This document shows, piece after piece, positions 4,192-54,858 of a stretch of DNA of 64,000 bases. Source of the stretch: an uncultured Prevotellaceae bacterium. Lineage in GTDB: Bacteria; Bacteroidota; Bacteroidia; Bacteroidales; Bacteroidaceae. The position numbers and the translations under genes were made by a program. The notes under the pieces were generated by a model. The model was given only the letters and a program-made list of their open reading frames with translations. It was not told the DNA's origin and made no database searches. The stretch spans positions 44,511 to 108,510 of the forward strand of contig CACYJV010000010.1 of the NCBI GenBank assembly GCA_902774815.1, written 5' to 3'. How positions within the stretch are numbered: the stretch's first letter is position 1; each line of letters starts with the position of its first letter.

Positions 4192-4345
4192 CTCAAGCAT
4201 TGCTTTGCAGGCTACATCTCATTGCTTTGTCACTTACAGAGCAATGCTTTTAAGGCTTCAAAGCATAGCTCTATACCCCTATAAAGCATAGCTTTATATT
4301 GTAGAAAGCAATGCTCCATGATGTAGAAAGCATTGCTTTGTTTGG
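4192..4345. repeat. 22-base-period palindromic repeat array A (7 units)
   Basis: Seven diverged units follow each other with start-to-start spacing 22, 22, 22, 23, 22 and 22 bases (core C at 4198, 4220, 4242, 4264, 4287, 4309, 4331). Each unit centres on a short palindrome of the form AAAGC-N3-GCTTT, for example AAAGCATTGCTTT and AAAGCATAGCTTT; the other half of each unit is more variable. The array lies about 150 bases past the stop of the symporter-fusion gene at 4493. Related arrays occur at 22958-23092 and 54724-54852. It is not a CRISPR: there are no unique spacers and the whole unit is only 22 bases. Confidence 0.85.
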
Positions 4346-4492
4346 CAGTAAAGGAGTAAGGAGATGTTGAGTAAGGTACTGCCACCTCTTCCGTTTGCAT
4401 TGAACCTATTGACTGACAAGGCATTGCGGTTCTGTAGAAAAGCGAAAGAGGCGGCAGCAAATACCGATCTTCAACTATAAAAATGCGAAAAA

Positions 4493-7180
4493 CTATTCCA
4501 ACGTCTTCCAAGTGAAGCCCTTCAAGGGGCGACGTTCGGGCCAAACGAGCGAGAGTAGCAGTGCAACGAGTGTGCTGACAACGATAGCGGTGAAGCCAAA
4601 GAGCAGGAAGTTGGCCGTGGTGCAGAAGTTCATCCAGAACACCGTTAGCGTTCCTGCCACAAACCCTACGAAGGCTGCGCGGGCACCGATACGCGGGAAG
4701 AAGATGCCCATGATGAACAGGGCACCTACAGCACCAGAGAGCAGACCGAGAATGGTGTTGAAATAGTCGAGCAGCGACTGGATGTTCATCGTGGCCATAA
4801 GGATGGCGATGAGCATGCCGATAAGTCCGCTGACGATGCCTGTCAGACGTGCCGTCTGCACAGTAGCCTTGTCGCTCAGCTGCGGGCGGTGCTTCTTCCA
4901 AATGTCAACAGTAAATGCTGTAGAGATGCTGTTGATATTCGATGAAATGGTCGACATTGTGGCAGCAAACACGGCAGCAATGAGCAGCCCTGCCACACCG
5001 GCAGGCAGTTGGCTCATCATGAAGAACGGGAAGATGGCGTCGGTCTTCTGCATAGTCAGGTCGGTGGCCATGGGATGGGTTTGGTAGAAGGTGTAGAGAC
5101 CCGTGCCGATGGTGAAGAAAGCAATGGTTACGACGACCGACATCATACCGTTGGTGAGGATGCTGCGTGCTGCCGACCGCTCGTCCTTTGTGGTGAGATA
5201 GCGTTGGATGACGGTCTGGTCGCTGGTATAGGAGATGATGTTGTTGGCCAATCCACCGAGTATGACAACCCAGAACGTTGCCGTGCGATAGTCGAACGAC
5301 CAGTCGAAGAGTCGGAACTTATCGTTGTCGCTGGCTATCTGGAAGAAGTCGGCAGGACCATTGCCCGTGTTGAAGATGAGGTAGGCGGCAGCAAGGAAGG
5401 CACCTCCCACGAGTATGATGCCCTGTACGACATCGCCCCAGACCACAGCTTCGACACCGCCCATGGTACAATAGATAATCGTTACCACAGCCATGACGAC
5501 GATGCAAACATAGATGTCGATACCCGTAACGGCTGTCATGGCGAGCGACGGCAAGAAAAGCACAAGTGCCATGCGTGCCACCATGAACACGATGAACAGA
5601 ACCGATGCCATGAGCCGGATGGCATACGAGAAGCGATGCTCCAGATACTCATAAGCTGTTGTGACATTCAGCCGGCGGAAGAAAGGCAGGAAGTAGCGGA
5701 TGACGGGGAACGACACGATGAGAATACAGATCTGCATGGGATAGTAGGTCCAATCGGTCATGTAGGCCTTGGCTGGTATCGACATATAGGTAATGGCCGA
5801 AAGCATGGTGGCAAAGATACTGATGCCTGCTGCCCACCACGGAATGCGATTGCCACCCTTGAAGAAATCTTCAGATCCCGACTCGCGTTGCATGAAGTAG
5901 TAGCCCAACAGGAGCATGGCGATGAGGTAGACTATGAGCACCAAGTAGTTGAGCCATCCGAATTGAGCCGTATAAGAGATGGTGAAACGGGTGGCATCGG
6001 CAGAGCGAACGCCCGGTTTCAGTTCGCCATTGACAATATAATAGGTATTAGCCGAATTGCCTTTCACCACAGCTGCGCCCGCACGGGCCAACCGCTTGTC
6101 GGCATAGACATTCGACCAAGCACCAGTGATGGTGTTGTATACCAACAGTGAATCGTGGAAATGATACCACTCTACAGGGTGCATCAGGTAGTCGGGCTGT
6201 GGGTGTTGCAGGGCATTGTCGAACGTTTGTTTGTCGACACCACCGAAGAACAGCACATTGTCGGCACCGCAAGGCATGGCCGTGGCACCAACAAGGGCAA
6301 ACAGCCGCGAGGCGTCATCGTATTTGAGTTGGTTGTCATCCGTTGTAGTTGTGCTACGTTTGGGTTGGCCTAAACAAAGGTCGAAGGTACGCAAGGCCTT
6401 CGTCTTCAGGTTCCAGGCGTAGCCTTGGGAACAAGACTCCTTCTCCACGGGATTGAAACCGCCAAAGAGTAGCAACTCCGGTCCATTGCAACCATTCTGT
6501 ACAGCCAGACAAGGTTGCAGGCAACCATGCCACGATGGGACTTCCTCGGCTGCGGCAAAAGTGGTCCACTTGCGGCTGGCCATATCGAAGGCATAGACAG
6601 AGGTGTTCAACTCGCCATCGGTCTGTCCGCCAGCCACATAGACGATACCTGCGGCAAAGGCTGCCGCCATCTGGTCAAGTCCTTTGGGAAGGCTGGGCAG
6701 AGGCTCACAACGACTACCGCCATCCTTCAGCATGAACACGTCACGCAGGGATGTCTTTCCATCGGAAGTTCCACCCATGCAGACGATACCATCGGGCGTG
6801 ACCACACTGGCTCCATAGGCCAAGGGACGAGGCAGCTGTCCCACGGAAACCCAACCGTGCGGATTGGCTGTAGAGAGCACAAAGACATCGGCATAGAAAC
6901 GCTTCTCCCCTCCGCTGGCAGCAGAGGTATCGGGAAAGTTGCACCCACCTGCCACGATGAGCCACTCGCCATCCATGCCTGCAAAGGGAGCCGCCACACC
7001 CTGCAGACTGTCACCTACAGCCAACTGTGGCAGTTCCTCTGTTAGAAAACTATTGAAAAGCTTTTCATCATTCTTGTTTCCGCATCCTGCAACGATGAGC
7101 GTAATAAAGGAAATAACCAACAAAGAAATGCCTTTCAGACACGCCCTGTATATTTTACCGTATTCAGCCATTCTCACCAT
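4493..7180 (-). CDS. Fusion of Kelch-type (sialic acid mutarotase-like) propeller and sodium/solute symporter
   Basis: Protein of 895 residues made of two families. Residues about 35-385 carry Kelch repeats (WLIVAGG, VYVAGGQTDG, LLLFGGFNP) typical of the cyclically permuted mutarotase family related to NanM/YjhT, which interconverts sugar anomers. Residues about 415-885 are a sodium:solute symporter (SSSF) domain with many membrane helices. The N-terminus has a hydrophobic segment ending in AGC, like a lipoprotein signal, which would place the propeller in the periplasm. The inferred role is opening or epimerising a sugar and passing it straight to the attached transporter; sialic acid is a guess from the family, not shown here. 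ATG codons at 7180 and 7171 are both possible. It follows the MFS gene by 6 bases, so they share a transcript. Confidence 0.85.
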   Translation of the reverse strand: MVRMAEYGKIYRACLKGISLLVISFITLIVAGCGNKNDEKLFNSFLTEELPQLAVGDSLQGVAAPFAGMDGEWLIVAGGCNFPDTSAASGGEKRFYADVFVLSTANPHGWVSVGQLPRPLAYGASVVTPDGIVCMGGTSDGKTSLRDVFMLKDGGSRCEPLPSLPKGLDQMAAAFAAGIVYVAGGQTDGELNTSVYAFDMASRKWTTFAAAEEVPSWHGCLQPCLAVQNGCNGPELLLFGGFNPVEKESCSQGYAWNLKTKALRTFDLCLGQPKRSTTTTDDNQLKYDDASRLFALVGATAMPCGADNVLFFGGVDKQTFDNALQHPQPDYLMHPVEWYHFHDSLLVYNTITGAWSNVYADKRLARAGAAVVKGNSANTYYIVNGELKPGVRSADATRFTISYTAQFGWLNYLVLIVYLIAMLLLGYYFMQRESGSEDFFKGGNRIPWWAAGISIFATMLSAITYMSIPAKAYMTDWTYYPMQICILIVSFPVIRYFLPFFRRLNVTTAYEYLEHRFSYAIRLMASVLFIVFMVARMALVLFLPSLAMTAVTGIDIYVCIVVMAVVTIIYCTMGGVEAVVWGDVVQGIILVGGAFLAAAYLIFNTGNGPADFFQIASDNDKFRLFDWSFDYRTATFWVVILGGLANNIISYTSDQTVIQRYLTTKDERSAARSILTNGMMSVVVTIAFFTIGTGLYTFYQTHPMATDLTMQKTDAIFPFFMMSQLPAGVAGLLIAAVFAATMSTISSNINSISTAFTVDIWKKHRPQLSDKATVQTARLTGIVSGLIGMLIAILMATMNIQSLLDYFNTILGLLSGAVGALFIMGIFFPRIGARAAFVGFVAGTLTVFWMNFCTTANFLLFGFTAIVVSTLVALLLSLVWPERRPLKGFTWKTLE

Positions 7181-7186
7181 AAATAG

Positions 7187-15349: not shown

Positions 15350-15379
15350 CAAAGATACGAAAAAGATTCGACTTTCAAG
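15350..15379 (-). promoter_or_regulatory. Promoter for ansA-rseC-rnf transcript
   Basis: On the minus strand TATCTTTG (15357-15350) matches the Bacteroidetes -7 element TAnnTTTG, with CTTG at 15379-15376 as a -33 element 18 bases away. It is back to back with the uxaC promoter. Confidence 0.7.
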
Positions 15380-15380
15380 T

Positions 15381-15411
15381 TTTGAGTTTCGAGTTTTTTT
15401 TTGTACCTTTG
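15381..15411 (+). promoter_or_regulatory. Promoter for uxaC
   Basis: TTTG at 15381-15384 and TACCTTTG at 15404-15411 are separated by 19 bases, a full Bacteroidetes-type promoter, 46 bases before the start codon. Confidence 0.75.
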
Positions 15412-21767: not shown

Positions 21768-22784
21768 ATGAAGATAGCCATCGTCATACTCAACTGGAAC
21801 GGACGCAAGATGCTGGAGCAGTATCTGCCATCTGTGTTGGAATATTCTCGCAACGACGCCACCGTCATAGTGGCCGACAATGCCTCTACCGACGGCTCAT
21901 TGGCCTTTTTGGCCGAACATTATCCAAAGGTGGAGACCATCTTTCTCGACCAGAACTACGGTTTTGCCGAAGGCTATAACCGTGCCCTGCGCCAGGTGGA
22001 TGCCGAATACTACGTGTTGCTGAACAGCGATGTGGAGGTGACGCACCATTGGCTTGAGCCGCTGGTCGAGTACATGGACAACCACGAAGAGGTGGCCGCC
22101 TGCCAGCCAAAGCTGCTTTCGTTCGTCAACAGGGACAAGTTTGAGTATGCCGGAGCATCGGGTGGCTACATCGATCGCTATGGCTATCCGTTCTGTCGGG
22201 GACGATTGTTCGACACAGTGGAGACCGATAATGGCCAGTACGACTACGCCGCACCCGTGCTTTGGGCAACAGGCGCCTGCCTTTTCATTCGTAGTAAGGA
22301 TTATTGGATGGCCAATGGCCTCGACGGACGTTTCTTTGCTCACAACGAAGAGATTGACCTCTGCTGGCGACTGCACATCATGGGGCGTCAGGTGGTATGC
22401 CTGCCCGACAGCGTTGTCTATCACTTAGGCGGAGGAACGCTGCCAAAGGGAAATCCACGCAAGACCTTCCTCAATTTCCGCAATAACCTGACGATGCTCT
22501 ACAAGTGCCTGCCCGATGAGGAGTTGCGCCACGTCATGCGCTGGCGATGGTTTCTCGACTATCTGGCTGCATGGCAGACGCTGATCCTAAACCGCAACCT
22601 TGGCGATTTCCGGGCCATCTATCGTGCACGCAAAGCTTTCAAGCACTGGTTGCCTCAGTTTGAGGAAGACCGTCGACAGATACAGCAAAGCCGCGTGGCC
22701 AAGGACATTCCCGAGCAGAAACACTTCTCCTTGCTATGGCAATACTACGCCCATCGCCGTCGCATTTATTCGCAATTGCCGTAG
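21768..22784 (+). CDS. Family 2 glycosyltransferase (rhamnosyltransferase-like)
   Basis: GT-A type glycosyltransferase of 338 residues. Motifs: nucleotide-binding start IVILNWNGRKMLEQYLPSV, VADNASTDGS, NYGFAEGYNRAL, the metal-binding LLNSDVEV, and HNEEIDLCWRLH near the likely catalytic base. No signal peptide and no clear membrane helix, so it acts in the cytoplasm on a lipid- or sugar-linked acceptor, probably in cell-surface polysaccharide synthesis. Cotranscribed with mtaB (18-base gap). Donor and acceptor cannot be told. Confidence 0.9.
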   Translation: MKIAIVILNWNGRKMLEQYLPSVLEYSRNDATVIVADNASTDGSLAFLAEHYPKVETIFLDQNYGFAEGYNRALRQVDAEYYVLLNSDVEVTHHWLEPLVEYMDNHEEVAACQPKLLSFVNRDKFEYAGASGGYIDRYGYPFCRGRLFDTVETDNGQYDYAAPVLWATGACLFIRSKDYWMANGLDGRFFAHNEEIDLCWRLHIMGRQVVCLPDSVVYHLGGGTLPKGNPRKTFLNFRNNLTMLYKCLPDEELRHVMRWRWFLDYLAAWQTLILNRNLGDFRAIYRARKAFKHWLPQFEEDRRQIQQSRVAKDIPEQKHFSLLWQYYAHRRRIYSQLP

Positions 22785-22893: not shown

Positions 22894-22957
22894 ACGTTAC
22901 AAAGGTATAGCGATCATATCGCAATAGTATAACTCTCCGAAACCATTCCTTTGGGTC

Positions 22958-23092
22958 CTCAAAAGCATTGAGTTTATACCCTAAAAAGCATTGAGTTAGT
23001 CCCTCAAAAGCATTGAGTTTGTACATCGAAAGCATTGAGTTTGTCCCCCAAAAGCATTGAGTTCGAAGGACGAAACCAATGCTTTTGAGGGA
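22958..23092. repeat. 22-base-period repeat array B (5 direct units and 1 inverted)
   Basis: AAAGCATTG occurs at 22962, 22985, 23007, 23029 and 23051 (spacing 23, 22, 22, 22), each followed by AGTT and a more variable half, and once inverted as CAATGCTTT at 23077-23085. Several units contain CTCAA-AAGCA-TTGAG, a 5-base stem with a 5-base loop. The array lies between two convergent genes, so it is in the 3' flank of both. It belongs with arrays A (4192) and C (54724). Confidence 0.88.
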
Positions 23093-23210
23093 CAATAGTA
23101 GTGACTTGATGGAATTACACCGCAGAAGAAAGGCCTTAAACCTTAGTGAAACGCCATTCAACAGTCGCCTATGCCATCTAGAAGGGCATGGAACAACCGC
23201 GCTCCACGCA

Positions 23211-24866
23211 TTATTTCACGGTGAAAACTACGATGCTCTTCGCAGGAAGCTGGATGCGCAGTTTGCCCTGGTTGCCCTTTACGGGTGTAATCTTCAGGGG
23301 CTGGCGCTTGTCGGCCGTAGCCACACTGACTTCCTTTCCTGGTTTGCTGCTGGCAAAACTGACGGGCTGAACACGCTGCGGATGCTCGAAGTCGTTGAAG
23401 TCGCGCACATCAGCCGACGTAAGCAGGTCGCCCTGAATGTTAGCCGCTGCACTGGACGGCAGACTGACTTCCACCACTTGCGCCTTGTCGAGCGACACGT
23501 TGCTAAGCGACACCACGACGGCTCCATCCTTGGTCTTTGCAGCTGATGCACTGACGAGAGGCAGCGTGCGGAAACCGTTGGCATCGGTCTCGTCGATAGC
23601 CTTGCGCATGTCGTGGCGCACCTTCATCTCGTCGCACTTCACGTCGAGGGGCAGATAGGTGGCCTCCTGGAACGGTGTGTACATGCGGAAGACGTGATAA
23701 GTGGGCGTTAGCACCATGTGACCGCCATCCTTCGTGTCGGTAAGAATCATAGACTGCAGCACGTTTACCACCTGTGCGATGTTGGCCATGCGCACACGGT
23801 CGCAATGACGGTGGAAGACGTTCAGCGAAAGTGCAGCCACAAAGGCATCGCGCATGGTGTTCTGCTGATAGAGGTGTCCGCGCACGGTGCCAGGCTCTTC
23901 GTCCCACCATGTGCCCCACTCGTCTACCATCAGTCCGATGCGCTTCTGCGGGTCGCTTTCGTCCATGATGTCAGAGTGGCGCTTGATGACGTCCTCTATT
24001 TCGAGGCACTTGCCAAGAGTCCAGTAGTACTCATCGTTATCGTAAACCAATGCCGAGCCCTTCGAACCGTCCCATCCGCTCACGGTGTAGTAGTGCAGGG
24101 AGACGCCGTTCATCTGTGTTCCCACCTGCTTCATGAGTACCTTTGTCCAGTTGTAGTCGTAGTCGCTGGCACCCGATGCAATCTTATAGAGCCGGTTGCC
24201 GTCGTAGTTGCGGCAATAGGTCTGGTATCTACGGTAGAGATCGGCATAGTATTCGGGGCGCATGTTACCACCACAGCCCCACGACTCGTTGCCTACGCCC
24301 AGATATTTCACCTTCCAGGCCTTGTCGCGACCGTTCTGCCGGCGCAATTTGGCCATGGGCGTGTCGCCATCGCTGGTCATATACTCCACCCACTTAGCCA
24401 GTTCCTCGACCGTACCCGACCCGACGTTGCCGCTGATGTAGGGCTCGCAGCCGATGAGTTCGCACAGATTCAGGAACTCGTGCGTACCAAACGAGTTGTC
24501 CTCGATGGTCCCGCCCCAGTTGTTGTTTTGCATTTTCGGGCGTTCTGAGCGTGGTCCGATGCCGTCGCGCCAGTGGTATTCGTCGGCAAAGCAGCCACCT
24601 GGCCAGCGCAAAACAGGCACTTTCAGGTCGCGAAGCGCCTGAAGCACGTCGTTTCGATAGCCCTGCGTGTTGGGAATGGCCGACTCCGGCCCTACCCACA
24701 GACCGCCATAGATACACGTTCCGAGATGTTCGGCAAACTGCCCGTAGATTTCTTTGTGGATTTTCTGGTTGCCATCAGCATTGCGGACGGCCACCGTAGC
24801 ATCCTGAGCCATTGCCGACGTGGCAGCAAAGGCACTGAGCAAGCAAATCAAAAGTTTCTTCATCAT
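23211..24866 (-). CDS. Secreted alpha-L-arabinofuranosidase, glycoside hydrolase family 51
   Basis: Enzyme of 551 residues that releases terminal L-arabinofuranose from arabinan and arabinoxylan. Signal peptide at residues 1-20 (cleavage after AMA), so it is exported. The (beta/alpha)8 catalytic domain has the acid/base Glu 194 in [11 protein letters not shown] and the nucleophile Glu 316 in VDEWGTWW, both typical of clan GH-A family 51. A C-terminal beta-sandwich covers about 385-551. No type IX tail is present, so it is probably periplasmic or reaches the surface another way. Stands alone between array B and a divergent secreted protein gene. Confidence 0.94.
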
Positions 24867-35928: not shown

Positions 35929-37386
35929 ATGAAACAGACAAAGATAGTATGCTCCATCAGCGACTTCCGCTGTGACGTGGAGTTTCTGCGCAAACTGTTC
36001 TTCGCCGGCATGAATGTCGTTCGAATGAACACCGCCCATGCCACCATCGAAGGAATGACGCAGGTCATCAACAATGTGCGTACGGTATCGCCACACATCG
36101 GAATCCTCATCGATACGAAGGGACCTGAGGTGCGTTCAACAACCGTAAAGGAGCCCATCCAGTACAAGACCGGCGACGTTGTGAAGGTGTTCGGACGTCC
36201 CGAAATGGAGACTACCCACGACATAGTCAACGTCAGTTACAAAGATTTCTGCAGCGACGTGCACGAAGGCGACCACATTCTCTTTGACGACGGTGCCCTG
36301 GATATGCTCGTTATGGAGAACACAGGCCCCATGATCGTGGCACAAGTGCAGAACGACGGTGTGCTGGGAGCCCGCAAGAGCGTCAACGTGCCAGGCGTCC
36401 ATATCGACCTTCCGGCCATTACCGAGAAGGACCGCCGCAACATTCTCTTCGCCATCGAACAGGACATCGACTTCATTGCCCACTCCTTCGTGCGCTCTGC
36501 TGCCGACGTGAAGGCCGTACAGGACATCCTTGACGAGCACCACAGCGACATCAAGATCATCTCGAAGATTGAGAATCAGGAAGGTGTCGACAACATCGAC
36601 GAGATCATCGAAGCCAGTTACGGCATCATGATTGCCCGAGGCGACCTCGGCATTGAGATTCCTTTGGAGCGCATACCAGGTATCCAGCGCGAAATCATCA
36701 GCAAGTGCGTCCACGCTCGCAAGCCTGTCATCGTGGCAACGCAGATGCTCCACTCCATGATTACGCAGCCACGCCCAACGCGTGCCGAGGTTACCGACAT
36801 CGCCAACGCCATCTATATGCGTACCGATGCGCTGATGCTTTCGGGTGAAACCGCAACGGGAAAATACCCCATCGAGGCTGTTGAGACCATGGCTACCATC
36901 GCCGAACAAGCCGAAAAGGACCGCCAGCGACTGAGTCACTTCGACTTGCCGCTCTCAGAAGATTGCTCGCAGAAGGAGTTCCTGGCTCATGCAGCCATTG
37001 ATTCCACACGCCGACTGGGCGTGGCAGGCATCATTGCCGACTCCATGACGGGCGAGGTGGTACGCTATCTGGCCTCTTTCCGCGGACCGAAGCCTATCCT
37101 TGCCATTTGCTATCGCGACAAAACGCAGCGACTGCTGAACCTCTCCTACGGCGTCATCCCTATCTATCAGCACGACCAACGCTCACCGGAGTATATCTTC
37201 CTGGCCGCATTGCGTATGCTCAAGCAGAAGGGTTACGTCGAACTTGACGACAAGATTGCCTACCTGAGCGGTAACCTCGGACTGGCAGCTGGTACGACTT
37301 TCCTCGAGATCAACCCCATTCGTCGCGTGTTTGAGAACGTGGATTTCTTCCACCTCCCACAGTATTCCGACCACAGAATCGAATAA
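35929..37386 (+). CDS. pyk: Pyruvate kinase
   Basis: Glycolytic enzyme of 485 residues converting phosphoenolpyruvate and ADP to pyruvate and ATP. Motifs: GMNVVRMNTAHAT (usually MNFSHG), LIDTKGPEVR, SKIENQEGVDNIDEII with the catalytic Lys, GIMIARGDLGIEIPLE, and LSGETATGKYPIEAVETM. The C-terminal regulatory domain is complete. The Asn-Thr-Ala substitution in the first motif is seen as a mild variant and does not suggest loss of activity. An inverted repeat follows at 37421. Confidence 0.96.
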   Translation: MKQTKIVCSISDFRCDVEFLRKLFFAGMNVVRMNTAHATIEGMTQVINNVRTVSPHIGILIDTKGPEVRSTTVKEPIQYKTGDVVKVFGRPEMETTHDIVNVSYKDFCSDVHEGDHILFDDGALDMLVMENTGPMIVAQVQNDGVLGARKSVNVPGVHIDLPAITEKDRRNILFAIEQDIDFIAHSFVRSAADVKAVQDILDEHHSDIKIISKIENQEGVDNIDEIIEASYGIMIARGDLGIEIPLERIPGIQREIISKCVHARKPVIVATQMLHSMITQPRPTRAEVTDIANAIYMRTDALMLSGETATGKYPIEAVETMATIAEQAEKDRQRLSHFDLPLSEDCSQKEFLAHAAIDSTRRLGVAGIIADSMTGEVVRYLASFRGPKPILAICYRDKTQRLLNLSYGVIPIYQHDQRSPEYIFLAALRMLKQKGYVELDDKIAYLSGNLGLAAGTTFLEINPIRRVFENVDFFHLPQYSDHRIE

Positions 37387-37420: not shown

Positions 37421-37479
37421 ATGGCAGCAATAATGCACCTAAATCACTGCATTATTGCTGCCATTGCTATGCTATTGAG
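37421..37479. repeat. Perfect 17-base inverted repeat between pyk and queC
   Basis: ATGGCAGCAATAATGCA (37421-37437) and its exact complement (37448-37464) enclose a 10-base loop. A second pairing CTCAA (37416-37420) with TTGAG (37475-37479) is possible beyond a bulge. No T run on either side, so it may be more than a simple terminator; it lies between convergent genes. Confidence 0.8.
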
Positions 37480-37556
37480 GCACGAAAGCACAGGTTTTTC
37501 AGCACTTCCCCAACATAGGCCTTCAATAAAGAAAAGATTGTTATGTCCCGTTCACC

Positions 37557-38210
37557 CTAGTCAGCGTACTCGGTGGTGTCTTCTATGCCAGCTTCCGCCA
37601 AGGCTTCGCGACGCTCAACGCATGTGCCGCAACGGCCACAGTGAACATCCTCGCCCTTATAGCACGACCAAGTTTCCGAGTAGTCTATGCCCAGCTCCTT
37701 GCCTCGGCGGGCTATGTCGGCCTTCGTCATGTGGCAATAGGGCGACAACAGGCGTACGCCATTGAAGGTGCCTGCTTCTGCTGCTCGATCGAATGCCTCC
37801 ACAAACTCAGGCCGGCAGTCGGGATAGATGGTATGGTCGCCTCCATGGTTGGCCATCATCACGTTCTTCAAGTCGTTCGATTCAGCCATGCCCACGGCAA
37901 CAGCCAACATGATGCCATTGCGGAAGGGTACCACCGTCGAATGCATATTCTCGTCGTCGTAATGACCTTCAGGTATCGCCTCTGCCCCATCGAGAAGCGA
38001 CGAGCGGAAGTAGCGCCGCATGAAGTCAAGCGGTATCACTGCATGAGTGATGCCAAGTCGCTCGCAATGCAGGGATGCACATTTGATTTCACGACGGTTG
38101 TGGTTCGCCCCGTAGTCGAAAGAGATAGCCATGGCAATGCGATCTTTGTACTCGTAGAGCATCGTTGTGGAGTCCATACCTCCACTCAAAATAAGGATTG
38201 TATCTTTCAT
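37557..38210 (-). CDS. queC: 7-cyano-7-deazaguanine synthase QueC
   Basis: ATP-dependent enzyme of the queuosine pathway, about 217 residues, making preQ0 from 7-carboxy-7-deazaguanine. P-loop-like PP motif ILSGGMDSTTMLYEY at the start, then FDYGANHNRRE and VPFRNGIMLAVAVG, and the zinc-binding SCYKGEDVHCGRCGTC-VER at the end with four Cys. ATG at 38210 is chosen since the preceding 11 residues overlap the promoter region. No other queuosine genes are next to it. Confidence 0.95.
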   Translation of the reverse strand: MKDTILILSGGMDSTTMLYEYKDRIAMAISFDYGANHNRREIKCASLHCERLGITHAVIPLDFMRRYFRSSLLDGAEAIPEGHYDDENMHSTVVPFRNGIMLAVAVGMAESNDLKNVMMANHGGDHTIYPDCRPEFVEAFDRAAEAGTFNGVRLLSPYCHMTKADIARRGKELGIDYSETWSCYKGEDVHCGRCGTCVERREALAEAGIEDTTEYAD

Positions 38211-38240
38211 TTTTCTTTTCAATGTATTCGTTTTCGGCGG

Positions 38241-38272
38241 CAAAGGTACAAATAAGCAAGCGAAATGACAAG
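38241..38272 (-). promoter_or_regulatory. Promoter of queC
   Basis: Minus-strand TACCTTTG (38248-38241) with CTTG (38272-38269) 20 bases upstream; 30 bases before the start codon. Confidence 0.65.
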
Positions 38273-41087: not shown

Positions 41088-41206
41088 ATTTACGATTTAC
41101 GGATTTACCATTTACGATTCTATATTTTCAGCAGAGAAAACGTTGCATTATCTATGCATGAAGACAACTGCAGAAATCGTAAATAGTAAATCCGTAAATC
41201 GTAAAT
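41088..41206. repeat. 32-base inverted repeat between rpiB and the dockerin gene
   Basis: The arm at 41088-41119 and the arm at 41175-41206 are reverse complements at 31 of 32 positions, with a 55-base spacer. Each arm is itself a run of four 7-8 base units (ATTTACG, ATTTACGG, ATTTACC, ATTTACG). It begins 5 bases after the rpiB stop codon and ends 5 bases before the stop of the convergent gene, so it nearly fills the intergenic space. Confidence 0.85.
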
Positions 41207-41211
41207 CACTC

Positions 41212-41907: not shown

Positions 41908-44900
41908 TTAACCACCTGTTTCTTTCCGTTCACTATCAGCACCTCATGTTTGAAGGGCTGCAGCGTGTCGTGCTTCCTGCCCTGCAGGTCGTACACACTT
42001 GAATTTTCAATTATCAATTTTCCATTTTCCATTTGCATGATTCCCGTCGTATATCCCCCAGATGTCGGAGCAAAGGTCACGCCTTTGTAGTCCTCGTCAA
42101 CCAGCATGGCATCGCGAACGGTCACCAAACCTTCGCCACTCACGTGTAGCGTCAGCATGGCATCAGTGTCAGCAAACTGCTGATTGCTCGACGAATACGT
42201 CATCACCTTGAAATGCGTATCGTCCACAGGCACAAACGCTGCACGGTGCTGCTTGTCGGTAGTCACATCCTCCAAGCTCTGGCCGCTGCCCACCTCAACG
42301 ATAAACTCCGATGCCACGTACGGAATATCGGTATTAACGCCTACGGCAATCGTTCCGTCGGCACGGGTGTTGAGCAGCAAACTGTTATCAGTCCAGGGCT
42401 GGGCAGGTGCGGCCGCTGACGACGACATAATCATACTCACGATGCGCACCAGGTCTACCACGTTAATGGATCCGTCGTTGTCCATGTCGGCTGCGCCAAA
42501 GATGAAGTCTGCAGTGCCGTTACCCATGATATAGGCAACCGTCTGCACCACATCCATCACGTTGATATCGCCGTCGTTGTTCACGTCGCCCGGATCGGCA
42601 TTAATCACTTCCACACCGAACGTATAGTCTGCCAATGTAATCTTCTTCAAGTCGGGATCAGAAAGGATGATATTCTTCACCGTGGCCTCGTAAGTACCCT
42701 CAGCCATGCTCTCATCGCATACGAATTCGACGCTCAGCAGTTCGCCATCGTTGCCCGTAAACACCTTGTTTGTGTTCGAATAGCAGAGGAAGTGATAGAT
42801 GCCATTACCCCTATCCGACACTTCCAGCACATGCTTACTGGCTCGGCTTCCCAGCGTACGAATCACGTCGCCGTCGTCATCCTTCGCCAGCGTAATGCCA
42901 TTCGGCAACTGCAAGTCAAACTCACAAGCGATAATCACATCCTCGTTCGTCAGGCTCAGGCTCATAGTAGAACTCTTGCCTGTCAGGAGAGTGGGAACAG
43001 AGGCTGAGAGGGTATTGTTCGTGCTTGGCTCTGGGCCCTCGAAACGAGCAACATAACTTCTCTCTAAAGTGCCTGAAAACCATTCGTCAGGATCGAAAGT
43101 AATACTATAAGAGTTGTCAGAAATTTCTCGGAAGAGGTCATGCTCCTCGTACCCATAATGCTCACCACCCACGAAACTTGTGAGTGTGCTGCCAGCATCA
43201 GGTACAAACACAAGTTTCATCACATCGCCATATTCATAAACAGCAGTGATAAGGTTGAGACTTGTATTATAAGAATTCTGAGTTGACGTTGTCCCCACAT
43301 ATTGTCCATTTTTATACATCTCAACTTTTCCCGGTCCTTCTGCTACGCAGCCAAGAGTTCTATAATCTGTGCGAAGATAGGGTTTGACCTCCACCGTTGT
43401 ATTCTCCGAAAGACTTTCAATTTGATAAACATATACAGATGGAGCAGTATTTTCTTCCCAATCAACTACAGAATTACCATTGACTATAATGTCTTGAATA
43501 TAGAATGCGCCATAACATGATGCCGAAATCAAGATACGACTACCAGCATTAAATTCTGCGCTGGTGCCAAACATATGAGGATCGTCCGATTGAATTTCGG
43601 AGAATCTTGATTCATCCAAATTAACACCTATATCTCCATTTACTGTTACCGTATACTTTTCAGGTGCACCATATTCTATAATCTCCTTGAAATTCCCCCA
43701 ATAAGGAGCAGCCTCGTATGCAGCTTTGGTGCCATAAGGAACATAAAGGGTGGCATTGAAGCAGCTGGGGAACCAATCACTAATTTCACTTGTCGAGGTA
43801 ATAGGCTCCGCCCATTCTACAGTCATAGAAGTCAAACTCTCACATCCCCAAAAGGCATATCTATCAATTGAAGCAACACTAGCTGGAATGGTAATTTCCT
43901 TAAGACTTGTAATGTCTGCAAAAGCTGCTTCTCCTATTGCTGTTACCGATTCTGGAATTGTAGTGTTGAAACAACCTGCAATCAATTCGTTCGTGGCCGT
44001 TTTTATCACAGCATTGCAGTTGTCACGAGAATCATATACGGGATTCGCAGCATCGACAGTAATTGACCTGAAAGCATTACCCGGCAATGCTCCACTTTTA
44101 ATATATGTAATGGAACTCGGTAATTTCAAATCAAAGTTACTGCTCATCATTGAATAATCGAATCCTGAATCACGATTGATGGTGGTTATAGTATAAACTT
44201 TTCCAGACTGCCCGCTGGCAACCGTCGAAGGAACGTTAAAGGTTCCTGAAACTGAAACTCCACCTTCAACAGGCCAAAAAACAGCAATCTCAGCTGTAGA
44301 TTGTTCTGCACTGATAACACGCATTAGGCAACCAAGTTCATCAAGATTAAAATAGTCATCGTCTTCTTCAATCGCAACATACTCCTTGAAGCCTGGCCAA
44401 TTATCCATATAGGCTTGGTGACTATCAATGAAATTATGAGATCCACCTTCTTTTCTTAGGGAAAGGCCTGGGGTGTATAGTGTTGCATTAGCGCAATTTG
44501 AGAACGTCGATACTACATCCATTTCTGAGGGTTCACCTTCACGTACTCTCACCGATGTAAGATTATCACAATCACTGAAAGCCCCTTCTGAGATTGTCAC
44601 TCCTGCAGGGATATCGATAGAAGTTAGGCCATCGCAATCGTAGAATGCACTTCCTTCAATTGTTTCCAAGCCTTCATGCAATGTTACTGATCCAAGACTT
44701 GATTCCGCAAATGCATTACTACCGATGGTTTTGACACTACTTGGAATATCAATTCCTGAAATCCGACTTCTGCCAAACGCTCCATTTCCTATCGTCACCA
44801 ATGTAGAAGGAAGTTTTACTGATTGAATATAGTTTCCATCTGGATTAAACCCAGGAATTTGGATGAAGGCACATGGGCCTATGCTTGTTATGCCTTCAGG

Positions 44901-50928: not shown

Positions 50929-50971
50929 TATAAGAATTTTGTAAAGATTACATTGATTAGGTTTCACGATG

Positions 50972-50979
50972 CAAAGATA
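50972..50979 (-). promoter_or_regulatory. -7 element of the C10 protease promoter
   Basis: TATCTTTG on the minus strand (50979-50972), 43 bases before the start at 50928. -33 element unclear. Confidence 0.55.
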
Positions 50980-51023
50980 CAAAATAGTTTGCAACTATCG
51001 GATAAATAATGAAAAGTTTTTAT

Positions 51024-51031
51024 TAACTTTG
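51024..51031 (+). promoter_or_regulatory. -7 element of folA, 4 bases before the start codon
   Basis: TAACTTTG at 51024-51031; ATG at 51036. Transcription would begin at or next to the start codon, implying a leaderless message. No good -33 element is seen. Confidence 0.5.
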
Positions 51032-51035
51032 CAAC

Positions 51036-51545
51036 ATGAAACCTGAAATCTGCATCATTGCCGCAGTGGCACGCAATCGCGCCCTCGGCCTAAAGAACAA
51101 GTTGTTGTACTGGTTGCCCAACGACCTGAAGCGTTTCAAGCAACTCACGACGGGCCATACCATCGTGATGGGACGCCGCACCTACGAGTCACTGCCAAAG
51201 GGCGCACTGCCCAACCGACGCAACGTCGTGCTGTCGCGTAGCGTGAACGGCATCGCCGACGAGCGATTCCCTGGATGCGACTGCTATCGTTCGCTGGCTG
51301 ATGCACTAAAGAGTTGCGCCACCGACGAGCAGGTGTTCGTCATCGGTGGTGCAAGCATTTACAAACAGGCGTTGCCATTGGCCGATCGCCTCTGTCTGAC
51401 TGAGATCGATGATGTGCCAGCTGAGGCTGACGTGTTCTTCCCTCCTTATGAGGAAGAATGGCAGCTGACGTGGAGTGAGCATCATGAAGCCGACGAACGG
51501 CACACGCACGCTTACACTTTCGCCGACTATCAGCGAAAAGCATAA
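51036..51545 (+). CDS. folA: Dihydrofolate reductase
   Basis: NADPH-dependent reductase of 169 residues making tetrahydrofolate. Family motifs: IIAAVARNRALGLKNKLLYWLPNDLKRFK with the active-site acidic Asp in the LPNDL segment, TIVMGRRTYESLP, NVVLSRS, and VFVIGGASIYKQALPLADRL. Length is normal. It stands alone between the divergent C10 protease and a convergent Lrp-type regulator. The YWLPND form is a common variant of the WxLPxDL motif. Confidence 0.95.
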   Translation: MKPEICIIAAVARNRALGLKNKLLYWLPNDLKRFKQLTTGHTIVMGRRTYESLPKGALPNRRNVVLSRSVNGIADERFPGCDCYRSLADALKSCATDEQVFVIGGASIYKQALPLADRLCLTEIDDVPAEADVFFPPYEEEWQLTWSEHHEADERHTHAYTFADYQRKA

Positions 51546-51647
51546 ATCTCTCCTTCAACGCTGCAAAGCAGTATTTACACGACGAAGGGCTTTCCACTCG
51601 CGAAGCGTCTTCGCACGAACGTAGGTCCCTGCACGCTACAGAGTTTC
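51546..51647. other. Intergenic region between folA and the Lrp gene
   Basis: Two small hairpins are visible: CTGC-AAA-GCAG (51561-51571) and GCGAAG-CGT-CTTCGC (51600-51614). TGCACGCTAC (51630-51639) also occurs at the end of array C (54849-54858). Spacing does not clearly follow the 22-base pattern. Confidence 0.4.
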
Positions 51648-52109
51648 TTACTCGTCAAGGATCGGCAATTGTCTATCGATGACGGCATTGAAAGCTACGA
51701 TGGTTTCGCTACGCGAAAGACCAAGCGGCTGCAGCTTGTCGTGAATGATGTTCAGCAGATCGTGGTTGTTACGGGCATAGAGTTTGATGAACAGGTCGTA
51801 ACCTCCAGTAGTATAGCTGCACTCCACTACTTCAGGAATCTTCTTCAATTCTTCCACCACATGATCAAACGAACCCGGGTCTTTCAGGTAAAGGCCTATG
51901 TAGGCACATGTTTCATAACCGATCTTCTCAGGGTCGAGAATAAACTGCGAACCCTTGATTACACCCTGATTGGTGAGTTTCTGGATGCGCTGGTGGATGG
52001 CTGCTCCGCTGACGTTACAAGCACGTGCAACTTCAAGGAACGGCACGCGTGCATCATCAGAAATCATCTTCAGAATGTTCTTGTCTAATGAATCTAAGCG
52101 CTGTGACAT
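51648..52109 (-). CDS. Lrp/AsnC-family transcriptional regulator
   Basis: Regulator of 153 residues: N-terminal winged helix (LDKNILKMISDDARVPFLEVARACNVSGAAIHQRIQKL, about 6-45) and a C-terminal ligand-binding (RAM/AsnC) domain (about 65-140; VVECSYTTGGYDLFIKLYAR). Such proteins sense amino acids and act as octamers or larger. Single gene with its own promoter at 52136. Target genes are not indicated. Confidence 0.94.
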   Translation of the reverse strand: MSQRLDSLDKNILKMISDDARVPFLEVARACNVSGAAIHQRIQKLTNQGVIKGSQFILDPEKIGYETCAYIGLYLKDPGSFDHVVEELKKIPEVVECSYTTGGYDLFIKLYARNNHDLLNIIHDKLQPLGLSRSETIVAFNAVIDRQLPILDE

Positions 52110-52135
52110 GTTTTAGTCTTAATGATTTAATTTTG

Positions 52136-52143
52136 CAAAATTA
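52136..52143 (-). promoter_or_regulatory. -7 element of the Lrp gene promoter
   Basis: TAATTTTG on the minus strand (52143-52136), 26 bases before the start codon; no clear -33 element. Confidence 0.45.
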
Positions 52144-52265
52144 CATAAAAAATCAAATAAGAATACGAAAACAATTGGTAAAAAACATTAAAAGTAAAAT
52201 CTATTTACAATAGAACTACCAATCTGTAATCATTCGGGGCAGTTTTGTTGGCAAACTGTAAGCAT

Positions 52266-52715
52266 TCACGATTTTGGAAGGGGCGCCTGTGCGCTGTAGA
52301 AGATATGGCCGACGCGGGCTTCGCGCAACGCCTGCTTGACCTGCAGAATGAGTTGCATAGGCGTTTTCTTGTCGGCTTTCAGGCAAACCACCATCTGCTG
52401 ACGATCATCTGCTGACATACGGCGTCGCTCATCGGCTAATGCTACCGACATGGCTTCTGACAGTCCTTTCCCTTCTGTGGTTGGAAGGACCCGATTGCCT
52501 ACCTGCACGCGTCCCTCACCAACATAGACATAGACCAAGGCCGACTTATGTTCGGGCTTCAATAGCATGGTACCCTGCGGAGTCTCGACCTTCATCTTCG
52601 GTGCTGAACTGCGCATGTGGGTGGAGATCATGAAGAAAAACAAGACCGTGAAAATGAGATCGGGCATAGATGCCAGATTCAGATTCGGGACGTTATGTTT
52701 TCTTCGCTTGATCAC
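52266..52715 (-). CDS. ExbD/TolR-family proton-channel protein (second copy)
   Basis: Inner-membrane protein of 149 residues with one helix (about 18-34, PDLIFTVLFFFMISTH) carrying the conserved Asp that takes part in proton flow, and a periplasmic domain. It works with ExbB to power TonB-dependent transport or a related process. It differs much from the other ExbD copy just upstream (44-base gap); two different ExbD proteins together are usual in Bacteroidetes. Confidence 0.88.
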   Translation of the reverse strand: MIKRRKHNVPNLNLASMPDLIFTVLFFFMISTHMRSSAPKMKVETPQGTMLLKPEHKSALVYVYVGEGRVQVGNRVLPTTEGKGLSEAMSVALADERRRMSADDRQQMVVCLKADKKTPMQLILQVKQALREARVGHIFYSAQAPLPKS

Positions 52716-52758
52716 GGGTTTTTATAATAACTTGATGAACTTTCGATATTAGAAGAAA

Positions 52759-53265
52759 CTACGAATTCTTGTCAGCAATGCGTTGCGGACACTGTTCGCG
52801 AATGAGGTCGCGCTGCGACTCGCTGATTTGCTGGAACGAACGGCCATACTTCTGATGCGACAACTGGTTCCGCACGTCGCGATAGGCACCCATCAGGGCT
52901 TCCTGCACGCAAAAGTATGCTTCGTAGGTAGCCTGTGGATGGGCATCGATCATGATGAGATGTGTCGATGCACGCTGGGCGATGAAATCGGCCATCATCG
53001 GACGAAGCTGGGCCGGTGAGACAGGCTGTCCGTTGAGTTGGCACTCGTCGTTCTGACTGATGCTGACTGTGAGCAACTGGTCGCGTTCCACCAATGCCTC
53101 GAGTGGCTGCTCCTGCTTATCCAAGGGAGGAAGCACGCGGGCAAGTCCCTTGTCGATGTCCATCGAGGAGGTCACAAGGAAGAAGATGAGCAACATGAAC
53201 GAAATGTCAGCTGTCGACGTGGTGTTCAGTGCTGGTACGCTACGATTGCTACGACGTCTGATCAT
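52759..53265 (-). CDS. exbD: ExbD/TolR-family proton-channel protein (first copy)
   Basis: Protein of 168 residues. N-terminal basic stretch MIRRRSNRSVPALN, one helix with the key Asp (TADISFMLLIFFLVTSS), and a periplasmic TolR-like domain. It partners with ExbB two genes upstream. The C-terminal tail is Arg/Gln-rich. It starts 6 bases after the stop of the small membrane protein gene, so it is in the same operon. Confidence 0.9.
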   Translation of the reverse strand: MIRRRSNRSVPALNTTSTADISFMLLIFFLVTSSMDIDKGLARVLPPLDKQEQPLEALVERDQLLTVSISQNDECQLNGQPVSPAQLRPMMADFIAQRASTHLIMIDAHPQATYEAYFCVQEALMGAYRDVRNQLSHQKYGRSFQQISESQRDLIREQCPQRIADKNS

Positions 53266-53271
53266 GATTTT

Positions 53272-53679
53272 CTATGCCCCCTCCCGTTTGCTTTTGTTTA
53301 TCTTCACGCTTCGACGGCCAGATGCACCGCCCCGAAGCTCGCTATAGGCATAGGCGACGGCTCCTACGACGAGCAGCACGCCTGCCGTCACGATGAACAT
53401 ATCGGCAGCACGAAGCCACAGACCGTCATCGTAAGTGCGGCCATTGACCACGATGGTTTCAGACGACCCCAAGAGAAACGACAGCACACCGATGAGCAGG
53501 GTGCCTGCAGCCACGCCTGCAACGATGCGTCGCAGAGGCACATGGTTCTCCTGTCTCGGCACTCCCCCACTCCGCTTGCGCAATGCGGTCGTCGTAGCCC
53601 AGACCACGGCAACGAGTGCTCCCAGCAATGCTACAGCCATGAGCACAAGCATACAGGTGGCCAGTAGTTCGTAGTTCAT
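53272..53679 (-). CDS. Small membrane protein of the exb cluster
   Basis: Protein of 135 residues with three predicted helices (about 5-29, 50-70 and 92-112) and a basic C-terminal tail (GRRSVKINKSKREG). No family recognised. Its start overlaps the exbB stop by 4 bases and it lies between exbB and exbD, so it is probably an accessory part of that motor or an assembly factor; this is inferred only from position. Confidence 0.75.
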   Translation of the reverse strand: MNYELLATCMLVLMAVALLGALVAVVWATTTALRKRSGGVPRQENHVPLRRIVAGVAAGTLLIGVLSFLLGSSETIVVNGRTYDDGLWLRAADMFIVTAGVLLVVGAVAYAYSELRGGASGRRSVKINKSKREGA

Positions 53680-54596
53680 GCGTTGACGTTTGTTTGGTGA
53701 GCCGACTTTCTCCTGCCGATGGCATCGAGCAACGTGATGCTGGTCTCCTCCATTTGTGCAACGAGCCTGTCGATCTTCGTATTGATGTAGTTATAGAACA
53801 GCTGTAGGATCAGCGCTACGATGATACCGAATACGGTCGTGATGAGGGCAACCTTCATGCCTTCGGCCACGACTGAAGCATTCAAGTCGCCAGCCAGTTC
53901 AATGTTCTCGAAGGCCATGACCATACCGATGACTGTTCCAAGGAATCCCAGCGAGGGAGCCATACCGATGAACAAGCGTATCCACGAGCAGCCCTTTTCC
54001 AGCAGCGATGCCTGCACGGAGCCATAGCTCTCTACCGAGCGTTCGATGGCCTCCATGGGTTCATCGGCCCGAAGCAGTCCCTGGTAGCACACCGAGGCGA
54101 CAGGACCGCGGGTATTACGGCACAGTTCACGAGCCTCATCCATTTGCCCTTCGTCGACCAAACGGCTCAGGTCGTCGGCAAAGCGGCGTGCATCGATTTC
54201 CGACAAGGTCAGATAGATGATGCGCTCGATGGAGAACGCCAATCCCAAGACCAAAGCCAGTGCGACAAGTGACATGAAGCCTGCATTGCCTTCGATGAAC
54301 TTTTTCTTCAGCGCGTGGTGCAGTCCGGTGCCTTCGTCGGCTTTCAGGGGAGTCTCGTCGTTGGCAACGGCCTGCAGCAATGCAGAGTCAACAGCCACCG
54401 AATCGGCACCCGTCATCATCGTCACAGCCGAGTCGGCGACGGTTTTTTGCCCATCGTTCTCAGCCATGGCAGAGGTTTGTGTTATTTGTGGCGTGCCCGT
54501 CTGCTGTGCCAAGCCACGCATGGGGCTTCCCATCAGCACCAGTGCTAGCAGCACAATACCAAAAGCACTGGTCAGAATATTTCCTGTTTTCTTCAC
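53676..54596 (-). CDS. exbB: ExbB/TolQ-family proton-channel protein with N-terminal extension
   Basis: Protein of 306 residues with a signal-like N-terminus (to about residue 30) and a long low-complexity linker before the first main helix (about 104-124). The MotA/TolQ/ExbB domain covers about 150-290 with helices near 215-235 and 250-275 (IGMAPSLGFLGTVIGMVMAFE). It forms the ring around ExbD that converts proton flow to movement of TonB. No tonB gene is adjacent. Leads the cluster exbB, membrane protein, exbD, exbD. Confidence 0.92.
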   Translation of the reverse strand: MKKTGNILTSAFGIVLLALVLMGSPMRGLAQQTGTPQITQTSAMAENDGQKTVADSAVTMMTGADSVAVDSALLQAVANDETPLKADEGTGLHHALKKKFIEGNAGFMSLVALALVLGLAFSIERIIYLTLSEIDARRFADDLSRLVDEGQMDEARELCRNTRGPVASVCYQGLLRADEPMEAIERSVESYGSVQASLLEKGCSWIRLFIGMAPSLGFLGTVIGMVMAFENIELAGDLNASVVAEGMKVALITTVFGIIVALILQLFYNYINTKIDRLVAQMEETSITLLDAIGRRKSAHQTNVNA

Positions 54597-54650
54597 CTTT
54601 TATAATTATAGATGGTTCAATATTTCACTTCAAAATCATAGAAATCGCTG

Positions 54651-54682
54651 CAAAGTTACGAAAAGTTGTGGGCTGGACAAAA
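54651..54682 (-). promoter_or_regulatory. Promoter of the exb cluster
   Basis: Minus-strand TAACTTTG (54658-54651) and TTTTG (54682-54678) with about a 19-base spacer, 54 bases before exbB. Confidence 0.65.
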
Positions 54683-54723
54683 GAATTTCGTTTCTTTTTT
54701 ATACCGACACGATGTATGTACGT

Positions 54724-54858
54724 TATAAAACATAGCTCTATAACCTACATAGCATAGCTCTATGACCAACAAATCATAGGTCTATAACCTACATAGCATA
54801 GGTCCTTATCGTACAAAGCAATCATTGGTAGCGCACAAAGCCATGCTTTGCACGCTAC
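54724..54858. repeat. 22-base-period repeat array C (6 units)
   Basis: Units start every 22 bases exactly, with the core C at 54731, 54753, 54775, 54797, 54819 and 54841. The first four share CATAG(C/G)TCTAT and ACCTA/ACCAA halves; the last two turn to AAAGCAATCATTG and AAAGCCATGCTTTG. GCATAGCTCTAT (54752-54763) is identical to 4263-4274 in array A. The array is just after the stop of the gene at 54884 and before the exb promoter. Confidence 0.88.

Follow-up and report, generated by a model that had tools for sequence, protein, structure and literature searches.

Dispersed rows of a 13-bp dyad on a 22-bp step in a Prevotellaceae genome: putative phased binding sites past the ends of genes

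The genome of an uncultured Prevotellaceae bacterium carries a dispersed family of intergenic arrays in which a 13-bp dyad, AAAGCA-W-TGCTTT, recurs with a fixed step. In the 1.244 Mb that were read out of 3.67 Mb, 63 arrays comprising 512 units were found, and by extrapolation the whole genome would hold about 190. The dyad is the conserved part of the unit and the 9-nt linkers between dyads are nearly free in sequence, while 379 of 449 steps measure exactly 22 bp and 437 fall at 21-23 bp; the rows run from about 3 to about 15 sites. There is, in our judgement, about an even chance that each array is a two-turn-phased binding row for a putative dimeric DNA-binding protein with a role at the level of the chromosome. 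A preliminary description, made from three arrays, had proposed a single family with little drift of its period. Both points hold in the larger sample, and the further copies on which such a family depends are plentiful, at about 50 arrays per Mb or roughly one per 20,000 bases.

The three arrays first described, at 4192-4345, 22958-23092 and 54724-54858, lie in the window, by which we mean the whole stretch of 64,000 nucleotides that was analysed. All three are present with slightly different extents in our motif-chain scan (Table 1), however, a fourth and weaker array had been overlooked. Maximum scores of the scan in 864 kb of control sequence were 25.6 (reversed) and 22.0 (dinucleotide-resampled). 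Tandem Repeats Finder reports array B (22961-23063, score 108) and array C (54731-54801, score 107), both with period 22, and has no row for array A, the units of which have drifted. Over stretches of 88 bases, the strongest signals of the window among lags 10-59 are found at lag 22 (67/88 in array B, 65/88 in array C). In array B, counting copies, the core AAAGCATTGAGTT occurs five times inside 22961-23063, followed by an inverted copy. Array A is flanked by two minus-strand genes, the stop of the one at 4493-7120 being 153 bp away; array C lies 34 bp beyond the stop of its neighbour. The other two arrays are placed between convergent genes, with stops 133 and 103 bp off for array B and, for the fourth array, 54 and 59 bp off (pyruvate kinase and queC). 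Rfam gave no match at gathering score within the window, and an Rfam RNA family was rejected on this ground.

Table 1. Arrays of the window and their neighbouring genes
Feature	Position	Strand	Content or annotation	Basis
Array A	4128..4339	.	10 dyad sites, 22-bp step	Motif-chain score 137
Gene with array A in its 3' flank	4493..7120	-	Kelch/N-acetylneuraminate-epimerase-like and sodium:solute symporter domains	Pfam on 4493-7180; start as called by our own dicodon script
Left convergent neighbour of array B	21768..22784	+	Family 2 glycosyltransferase	Pfam
Array B	22918..23107	.	9 sites	Chain score 109
Right convergent neighbour of array B	23211..24866	-	Alpha-L-arabinofuranosidase	Pfam
Left convergent neighbour of fourth array	35929..37386	+	Pyruvate kinase	Pfam
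Fourth array	37441..37497	.	3 sites	Chain score 31.6
Right convergent neighbour of fourth array	37557..38210	-	QueC	Pfam on 37557-38243
Array C	54727..54849	.	6 sites	Chain score 66.6
Gene with array C in its 3' flank	54884..58534	-	No Pfam match at E <= 0.001	Pfam on 54884-58576

Genes called with our own dicodon script, and no standard caller, contain none of the 63 array midpoints, and the period is not divisible by 3; a coding repeat was therefore rejected, in agreement with the non-coding character given earlier. Among gaps of at least 150 bp, an array is held by 31 of the 51 between convergent genes (Fisher p 1.9e-13), by 25 of 185 between tandem genes and by 6 of 89 between divergent genes. 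Array edges lie at a median of 80 bp from stops (n=88) as against 173 bp from starts (n=37), so the 3'-flank location noted for the first three arrays extends to the family. The arrays are also kept apart from one another: gaps of 0.6-5 kb between arrays are absent where 8.8 are expected, and gaps of 15-25 kb number 22 as against 11.1 expected, with a median gap of 16 kb and one close pair 433 bp apart. In G208, a genome of another genus, convergent gaps are likewise preferred (8 of 24 occupied, p 0.001) and the median gap is 11 kb in the portion read, however, the spacing exclusion is not significant there (P 0.32, one close pair at 307 bp), and of the 600 kb that were read the final 260 kb contain no lag-22 array.

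Core, linker and flank were compared in 45 arrays, namely the 51 rows of the chain scan minus 6 decay tails. Core identity is 0.67 within an array and 0.61 between arrays, while linker identity falls from 0.52 in adjacent units to 0.40 within an array and 0.30 between arrays; the likeness of adjacent linkers indicates that local duplication also shapes the arrays. The working form suggested in the preliminary description was a small RNA hairpin within each unit. Compensatory double changes between the two half-sites of a unit are not in excess, either in a set of 345 sites (48 vs 52 expected) or in one of 502 sites (59 vs 72.6 +/- 7.8 expected from shuffled halves), and on these counts we reject the within-unit RNA hairpin as well as a DNA cruciform. 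The half-sites vary independently, as expected from protein contacts and not from base pairing.

Read as RNA, all six strands of arrays A-C fold better than their shuffles (z -2.7 to -6.0), with a long stem at the end of array B made by its inverted copy and, on the minus strand, a 14-bp stem hairpin of which the last unit of array C is part. Pairing between units may thus occur, and hairpins of this kind could act as 3'-end elements that stabilise, process or end messages from both directions, a role with which the position of the arrays just past stop codons agrees. We nevertheless consider such a role unlikely. Along with the missing compensatory excess, stems do not extend into the linkers beyond chance, and the sense strand of tandem arrays has no clear bias of G.U over A.C (88 vs 73). 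Terminator-like hairpins, counted with a scan of our own, stand between stop and array at 16 of 57 gene ends, which is near their general frequency in 3' flanks (63/287); the terminating role put forward earlier loses its footing here. Six of the 63 arrays lie between divergent genes, and a function in RNA would leave unexplained both the spacing exclusion and a 22-bp step common to unrelated sequences. An intrinsic terminator, which would show as a GC-paired hairpin with a T run behind it, was rejected as the nature of the array, since a signal of this type lies inside the array at 8 of the 57 gene ends and a separate one ahead of it at the 16 mentioned.

Conservation of the period in related genomes was followed at 80 enolase loci picked blind to arrays, enolase itself having been chosen since its copy in the present genome adjoins an array. 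The 44 nearer loci (L171-L220 minus six loci named as other phyla, including some labelled only Bacteroidales and one Parabacteroides) hold 22 arrays at lag 22, whereas the other non-triplet lags give 0.4 on average; at a threshold of 40/66 the figures are 25 and 0.47. Seven of the 22 come from the 84 kb that lie no more than 1 kb from enolase and 15 from the remaining 624 kb. The enolase spot is thus enriched, however, away from it lag 22 still gives 15 arrays vs a mean of 0.27. In Segatella copri (locus L181) an array stands some 1 kb from enolase. The 22-base period is retained while unit sequences differ from species to species, a single genome can carry more than one family of units, and some families lack an A-tract, as at L177 and in the second array at L241, for example. 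Dyad symmetry at p<0.05 is seen in 64% of 25 arrays of named relatives vs 14% of 44 other-lag control arrays, which include coding repeats; in each genome set, between a quarter and a half of the arrays fail this test when taken singly.

For the most part, species of the genus do not share array positions: a motif array at most 600 bp from the stop is present at 2 of 30 enolase loci and at 1 of 30 thyA loci, the present genome included in both counts. In the 27 remaining Bacteroidales loci, 3 arrays are found at lag 22, no more than at lag 42 (4) or lag 21 (3). Six further genomes were selected from motif-search listings (G208, G028, G181, G024, G064 and G068). In 200 kb of G064, four places give a weak lag-22 signal, and in 100 kb of G068 one 22-bp row occurs and lag 48 alone reaches three or more, hence the class is not uniform. 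Viral contigs gave nine stretches. Three of them, on two contigs, comprise four or five sites and reach chain scores of 48-72, and each of the remaining six has just two sites; arrays are therefore rare in that collection. A search for related loci with one protein of the window found none.

The arrays may also be viewed as selfish or neutral minisatellites, enlarged through duplication of neighbouring units, purged from genes and promoters and seeded at a distance resembling target immunity. The shared linkers of adjacent units and the turnover of array positions between species agree with this view, and target immunity would lead one to expect the exclusion below 5 kb. It appears improbable to us, however, as neutral duplication predicts neither a single period for unrelated sequences nor a conserved symmetric core beside a decaying linker. 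The flanks also speak against it: in an all-against-all BLASTN comparison of 400-bp flanks, the flanks of 31 of the 45 arrays match those of no other array, and the remaining 14 have 32 matches of 16-78 bp, in part belonging to a separate REP family of the genome.

BIMEs bind gyrase. By analogy, the arrays could be targets of a topoisomerase or nucleoid protein, serving as a supercoil sink between convergent genes, with a loose readout based on bending or on A/T steps in phase and no dedicated, specific protein. The convergent and 3' placement, the retention of the period through changes of sequence between species, and the AAA and TTT of the main core, which are about one helical turn apart, are consistent with this; REPs, according to PMC3733652, likewise occur mainly between convergent and unidirectional genes. 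On the other hand, one 13-mer, whose C/G positions carry as much as 1.4 bits, dominates in this genome, which indicates sequence-specific reading, and some families elsewhere lack the A-tract. We regard this possibility as quite unlikely.

The likeness to REP/BIME elements, as PMC3733652 presents them, extends to high-copy intergenic palindromes and species-specific sequences, whereas the present arrays have a 13-bp dyad, a strict 22-bp step, rows of up to about 15 sites and no tag. REP elements mobilised by a RAYT transposase would account for such features, and the genome does contain three Y1 transposase (Y1_Tnp) genes. However, a GTAG/CGTC tag stands beside 32 of 512 units vs 30 in shuffled flanks, and within 1.5 kb the dyad does not flank any of the three transposase genes on both sides, although one of these genes has an array about 1.4 kb to one side. 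A GTAG-tagged REP family does exist in this genome (41 matches in 1.244 Mb, 23 plus and 18 minus), and it is separate from the dyad arrays and differs from them in sequence. An origin of the arrays through RAYT transposition is thus very improbable.

Porphyromonas belongs to Bacteroidales. The 22-base repeats of P. gingivalis named in the preliminary description are indeed in print: PMC4596501 mentions 41-, 23- and 22-nt tandem repeats in strain W83, the last having the same period as the present arrays, with which they were compared by period alone. In the same paper, the BrickBuilt MITE of P. gingivalis is a single family of 19 copies, with imperfect 23-nt repeat rows that are always intergenic. 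Its rows are enclosed by a leader and a tail that bear IS5-like terminal inverted repeats, and some copies are without the leader or the tail. Although intergenic rows of imperfect short repeats are thus found in another Bacteroidales genus, the arrays described here are far more numerous by extrapolation, have no leader or tail common to the flanks of the 45 arrays, and change their letters between species; a BrickBuilt-type MITE was rejected on the flank comparison given above. The TAACTGA heptamers of Beggiatoaceae, Cyanobacteria and some Bacteroidetes are, according to PMC4679880, abundant intergenic direct repeats and proposed binding sites, located in a Beggiatoaceae genome mostly directly upstream of start codons. 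They are 7-base repeats with no dyad, whereas the present arrays have period 22 and a dyad and lie past stop codons.

CRISPR arrays have near-identical repeats, unique spacers of about 30 bp and adjacent cas genes; CRISPR was rejected on account of cores that vary within arrays and 9-nt linkers that are often alike between neighbours. By the features examined, the arrays are not REP, CRISPR or a BrickBuilt-type MITE. The open-access literature searched yielded no account of a class of repeats in Prevotella or Bacteroides that keeps a 22-bp period while its sequence changes. Phased operator or iteron rows may offer an analogy, that of a cooperative protein on repeated sites; BldC reportedly forms a cooperative multimer on DNA direct repeats. 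The arrays have in common with such rows a conserved motif on a constant helical step, however, operator and iteron rows such as those of BldC are single regulatory sites, whereas the present arrays are dispersed chromosome-wide.

In the phased binding row that we propose, a dimeric protein with two-fold symmetry would read the 13-bp dyad, and adjacent dimers, spaced by exactly two helical turns, would all occupy one face of the DNA, binding cooperatively along the sites of a row. The helical repeat of bacterial DNA in vivo is about 11 bp per turn according to PMC8501960, and a 22-bp step therefore fits two turns; two-turn phasing with a protein-array function, as first suggested, is to this extent supported as a possibility. 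Such arrays would act chromosome-wide rather than for single genes, as points for anchoring, for domains or for the handling of supercoils, at places where transcripts arriving from the two sides come to an end. What we infer from the pattern is the protein itself, its cooperative binding and its chromosomal role. As letters vary by species and more than one family can be present per genome, recognition specificity would have to turn over fast while the geometry is kept. One candidate binder, HU-HIG, was rejected, since its matches number 4 in the present array-rich genome, 19 in G064 and 22 in G045, the arrays of the last being uncounted.

We tentatively propose, as clearly less likely than not, that Prevotella and near relatives possess a class of elements defined by geometry, namely intergenic rows of dyads with a two-turn step of 22 bp, with letters rewritten between species, room for several letterings side by side in a genome and, in the present genome, a minimum spacing. 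If the period is conserved while the sequence is free, this would be a rare bacterial DNA element conserved in geometry and not in letters, and motif searches would miss elements of this kind. In eukaryotic centromeric satellites, monomer length outlives monomer sequence; if the proposal is true, the arrays would constitute a satellite-like chromosome organiser with a fast-evolving reader protein, following a similar logic. To our knowledge, chromosome folding and division in Bacteroidales are poorly understood, and dense, dispersed and phased sites with a fixed step, a preference for convergent gaps and a minimum spacing may provide a handle on chromosome organisation in this order.

Arrays A, B and C, the 22-base-period repeat arrays of the window, were found on direct reading of the sequence where the preliminary description had placed them, and the strongest 88-base autocorrelation in the window (lags 10-59 compared) is at lag 22, with 67/88 and 65/88. 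Tandem Repeats Finder gave a period of 22 for B and C and no row for A. The further copies which that description had proposed to look for do exist: in the own genome (GCA_902774815.1; 3.67 Mb, 62 contigs) a two-unit pattern with up to 3 mismatches has 438 forward and 424 reverse matches, against 1 + 1 for the backward control, and in a sample of 1.244 Mb (the window and 1.18 Mb more) a symmetric motif of 13 columns, built from chained sites, detects 63 arrays with 512 sites, the median being 8 sites per array. The density is ~50 arrays per Mb, or ~190 per genome by extrapolation. The motif-scan cut-off was 26.6, the best control scores in the first 864 kb being 25.6 (reversed) and 22.0 (dinucleotide-resampled). 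The scan missed 4 of 43 arrays detected by autocorrelation at lag 22 in this genome, one of which holds a dyad copy.

Each unit comprises a 13-bp dyad core, AAAGCA-W-TGCTTT in the motif scan of the own genome, and a 9-nt linker. The step is exactly 22 in 379 of 449 cases and 21-23 in 437 of them (1.244 Mb), and core columns hold 0.36-1.48 bits against 0.03-0.27 bits outside the core. Across 45 arrays, core identity is 0.67 within and 0.61 between arrays. Because the linkers of adjacent units are alike (0.52) beyond those of non-adjacent units of an array (0.40) or of different arrays (0.30), these alignments indicate that arrays expand partly through local duplication and that, in the copies so made, linkers lose their likeness while cores keep theirs.

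Features located in the window, the own genome and relatives
Feature	Source	Position or locus
Array A	window	4128-4339
Array B	window	22918-23107
Array C	window	54727-54849
Array C, last unit	window	54828-54858
Heptamer repeats	window	15367-15396, 41088-41119, 41174-41207, 42002-42034, 59983-60008
GTAG-tagged REP examples	own genome	C1:885, C11:73536, C5:11512
Stretch without lag-22 array	G208	C1:1338477-1600000
Arrays within 1 kb of enolase	named loci	L172, L180, L181, L198, L202, L214, L217
Treponema-, Selenomonadaceae- or Selenomonadales-labelled contigs	named loci	L190, L196, L200, L203, L207, L210
Dyad sites in viral contigs	viral contigs	L296, L299, L301

None of the 63 array midpoints falls within a gene called by our in-house script (1.244 Mb). 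Among gaps of at least 150 bp in the own genome, arrays are present in 31/51 convergent, 25/185 tandem and 6/89 divergent ones (Fisher p 1.9e-13), and the median distance of array edges is 80 bp to stop codons (n=88) vs 173 bp to start codons (n=37), in agreement with the preference for 3' flanks proposed earlier. Against a null that redraws an equal number of gaps per class per contig, inter-array distances of 0.6-5 kb are missing from the 1.244 Mb (0 vs 8.8 expected; short-side P 0.0003), as they were from the first sample (0 vs 7.2 expected, P 0.0002), where the overall spread of gaps (CV) was not unusual (P 0.21). The single close pair is 433 bp apart, and distances of 15-25 kb number 22 vs 11.1 expected. 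G208, of a different genus, also prefers convergent gaps (8/24 with an array, p 0.001); spacing exclusion is not significant there (P 0.32). The last ~260 kb of the 600 kb read from G208 has no lag-22 array and the preceding 338 kb holds 20, perhaps a regional effect.

The exact motif is patchy among relatives: of 60 genomes in the genus, the own one among them, 19 have any match with 2 mismatches, and at least 20 forward matches occur in just six, the own genome and G006, G012, G014, G039 and G047. The family-level draw adds G064 and G195, and the maximum outside the genus is 14 forward matches (G208). In the first 200 kb of G208, lag 22 gives 12 arrays, lag 44 gives 5 and every other lag from 10 to 60 fewer than 3. 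Lag 22 also leads in G028 (6 arrays in 100 kb), G181 (3) and G024 (4); G064 has weak lag-22 places only and G068 one 22-bp row. Since these genomes were drawn from motif listings, 80 named loci centred on enolase, chosen since the own copy adjoins an array, were taken instead. The period anticipated for related genomes recurs here, with 22 lag-22 arrays in 15 of 44 loci of nearer relatives (766 kb); 27 other Bacteroidales loci have 3 in 2 loci, not above some triplet lags, and the 9 loci named as other phyla have none. With lag 44 left out, the other non-triplet lags average 0.4-2.0 arrays in the nearer group across several thresholds, vs 22-28 at lag 22. Seven of the 22 arrays lie <1 kb from enolase (7 in 84 kb vs 15 in 624 kb elsewhere), whose flanks may be a favoured site; with these removed, lag 22 still has 15 vs a mean of 0.27.

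Unit sequences seem unrelated from one species to another, for instance among Segatella copri, Prevotella pallens, Phocaeicola oris and rumen Prevotella. Dyad symmetry (p<0.05) is seen in 64% of 25 arrays of the named set, 57% of 28 in the own genome and 55% of 11 in G208, the share among 44 arrays at other lags being 14%. Few array positions are kept from one species to the next: among same-genus loci, own included, a motif array occupies the 3' flank of enolase in 2/30 and of thyA in 1/30, and for either gene a 22-bp array of another type stands in one more flank (G259, G034; both 41/66). Enolases on the Treponema-, Selenomonadaceae- or Selenomonadales-labelled contigs are 79-87% identical to the own Prevotella-like one, reflecting either gene transfer or mislabelled bins. 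Three stretches on two viral contigs, either in phage DNA or in host flank, carry 4-5 sites of the dyad found in the own genome, at a 22-bp step.

The preliminary description saw a small hairpin in each RNA unit and a possible terminating function. Units working as hairpins should have arm changes mirrored in the opposite arm, hence a compensatory-change test; double changes show no surplus (48 vs 52 expected at 345 sites; 59 vs 72.6 at 502), the dyad stops at the linkers with no stem extension (identity 0.293 vs 0.289), and sense-strand G.U is not clearly above A.C in tandem arrays (88 vs 73), all of which speaks against the unit hairpin. Termination fares no better: where an array lies 35-700 bp from a gene end (57 ends), a separate terminator-like hairpin precedes it in 16 cases, about the usual rate for 3' flanks (63/287); at enolase a hairpin and T run lie between stop codon and array. 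The window arrays nevertheless fold strongly as RNA: all 6 strands examined have z of -2.7 to -6.0, since every unit is able to pair with all the rest. This keeps alive the rival explanation that arrays act at the RNA level through pairing between units, which we regard as unlikely. The last unit of array C is enclosed in a hairpin (14-bp stem, 3-nt loop) that lacks a clear T run. The two linkers of this unit are nearly complementary to each other, such pairs occurring at 4/481 sites vs 3.6 by chance.

Among known repeats, REP/BIME elements have a similar placement (PMC3733652), but their tag is missing from the 22-bp units (32/512 vs 30 shuffled). BrickBuilt of Porphyromonas (PMC4596501) has 23-nt rows with leader, tail and terminal repeats, whereas the 22-bp arrays have no leader or tail common to them; heptamer repeats (PMC4679880) differ in period. 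With no tag, leader/tail or matching period, the 22-bp arrays are counted as a variant of dispersed intergenic repeats distinct from all three. The own genome has a separate GTAG-tagged REP family (GTAGGGGCAGACTCCCGTGTCTGCCC; 23 plus- and 18 minus-strand, 41 matches in 1.244 Mb), with no match in the window; 5 of the 23 plus-strand matches lie <300 bp from a 22-bp array. It also has heptamer direct repeats, which differ widely in lettering (30 noncoding places at lag 7 vs at most 7 at other lags 4-13; 1.244 Mb) and may be another example of a constant period with unconstrained sequence; the excess is slight in the 44 named nearer loci (lag 7, 8; lag 9, 6).

In vivo measurements in bacteria give a helical repeat of ~11 bp per turn (PMC8501960), so 22 bp makes two turns. 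The fixed two-turn step, symmetric core and independent half-sites would fit selection by a cooperative dimeric DNA-binding protein. HU-HIG proteins were rejected as the binder, their counts not following array richness, and Y1 transposases as a partner, none of the three in the own genome being bracketed by the dyad. The stronger reading, which we hold tentatively, is a geometry-defined class of elements whose period is kept as the letters change. Convergent-gene placement and the minimum distance suggest that the arrays would serve a chromosome-level role and not the control of the adjoining gene.
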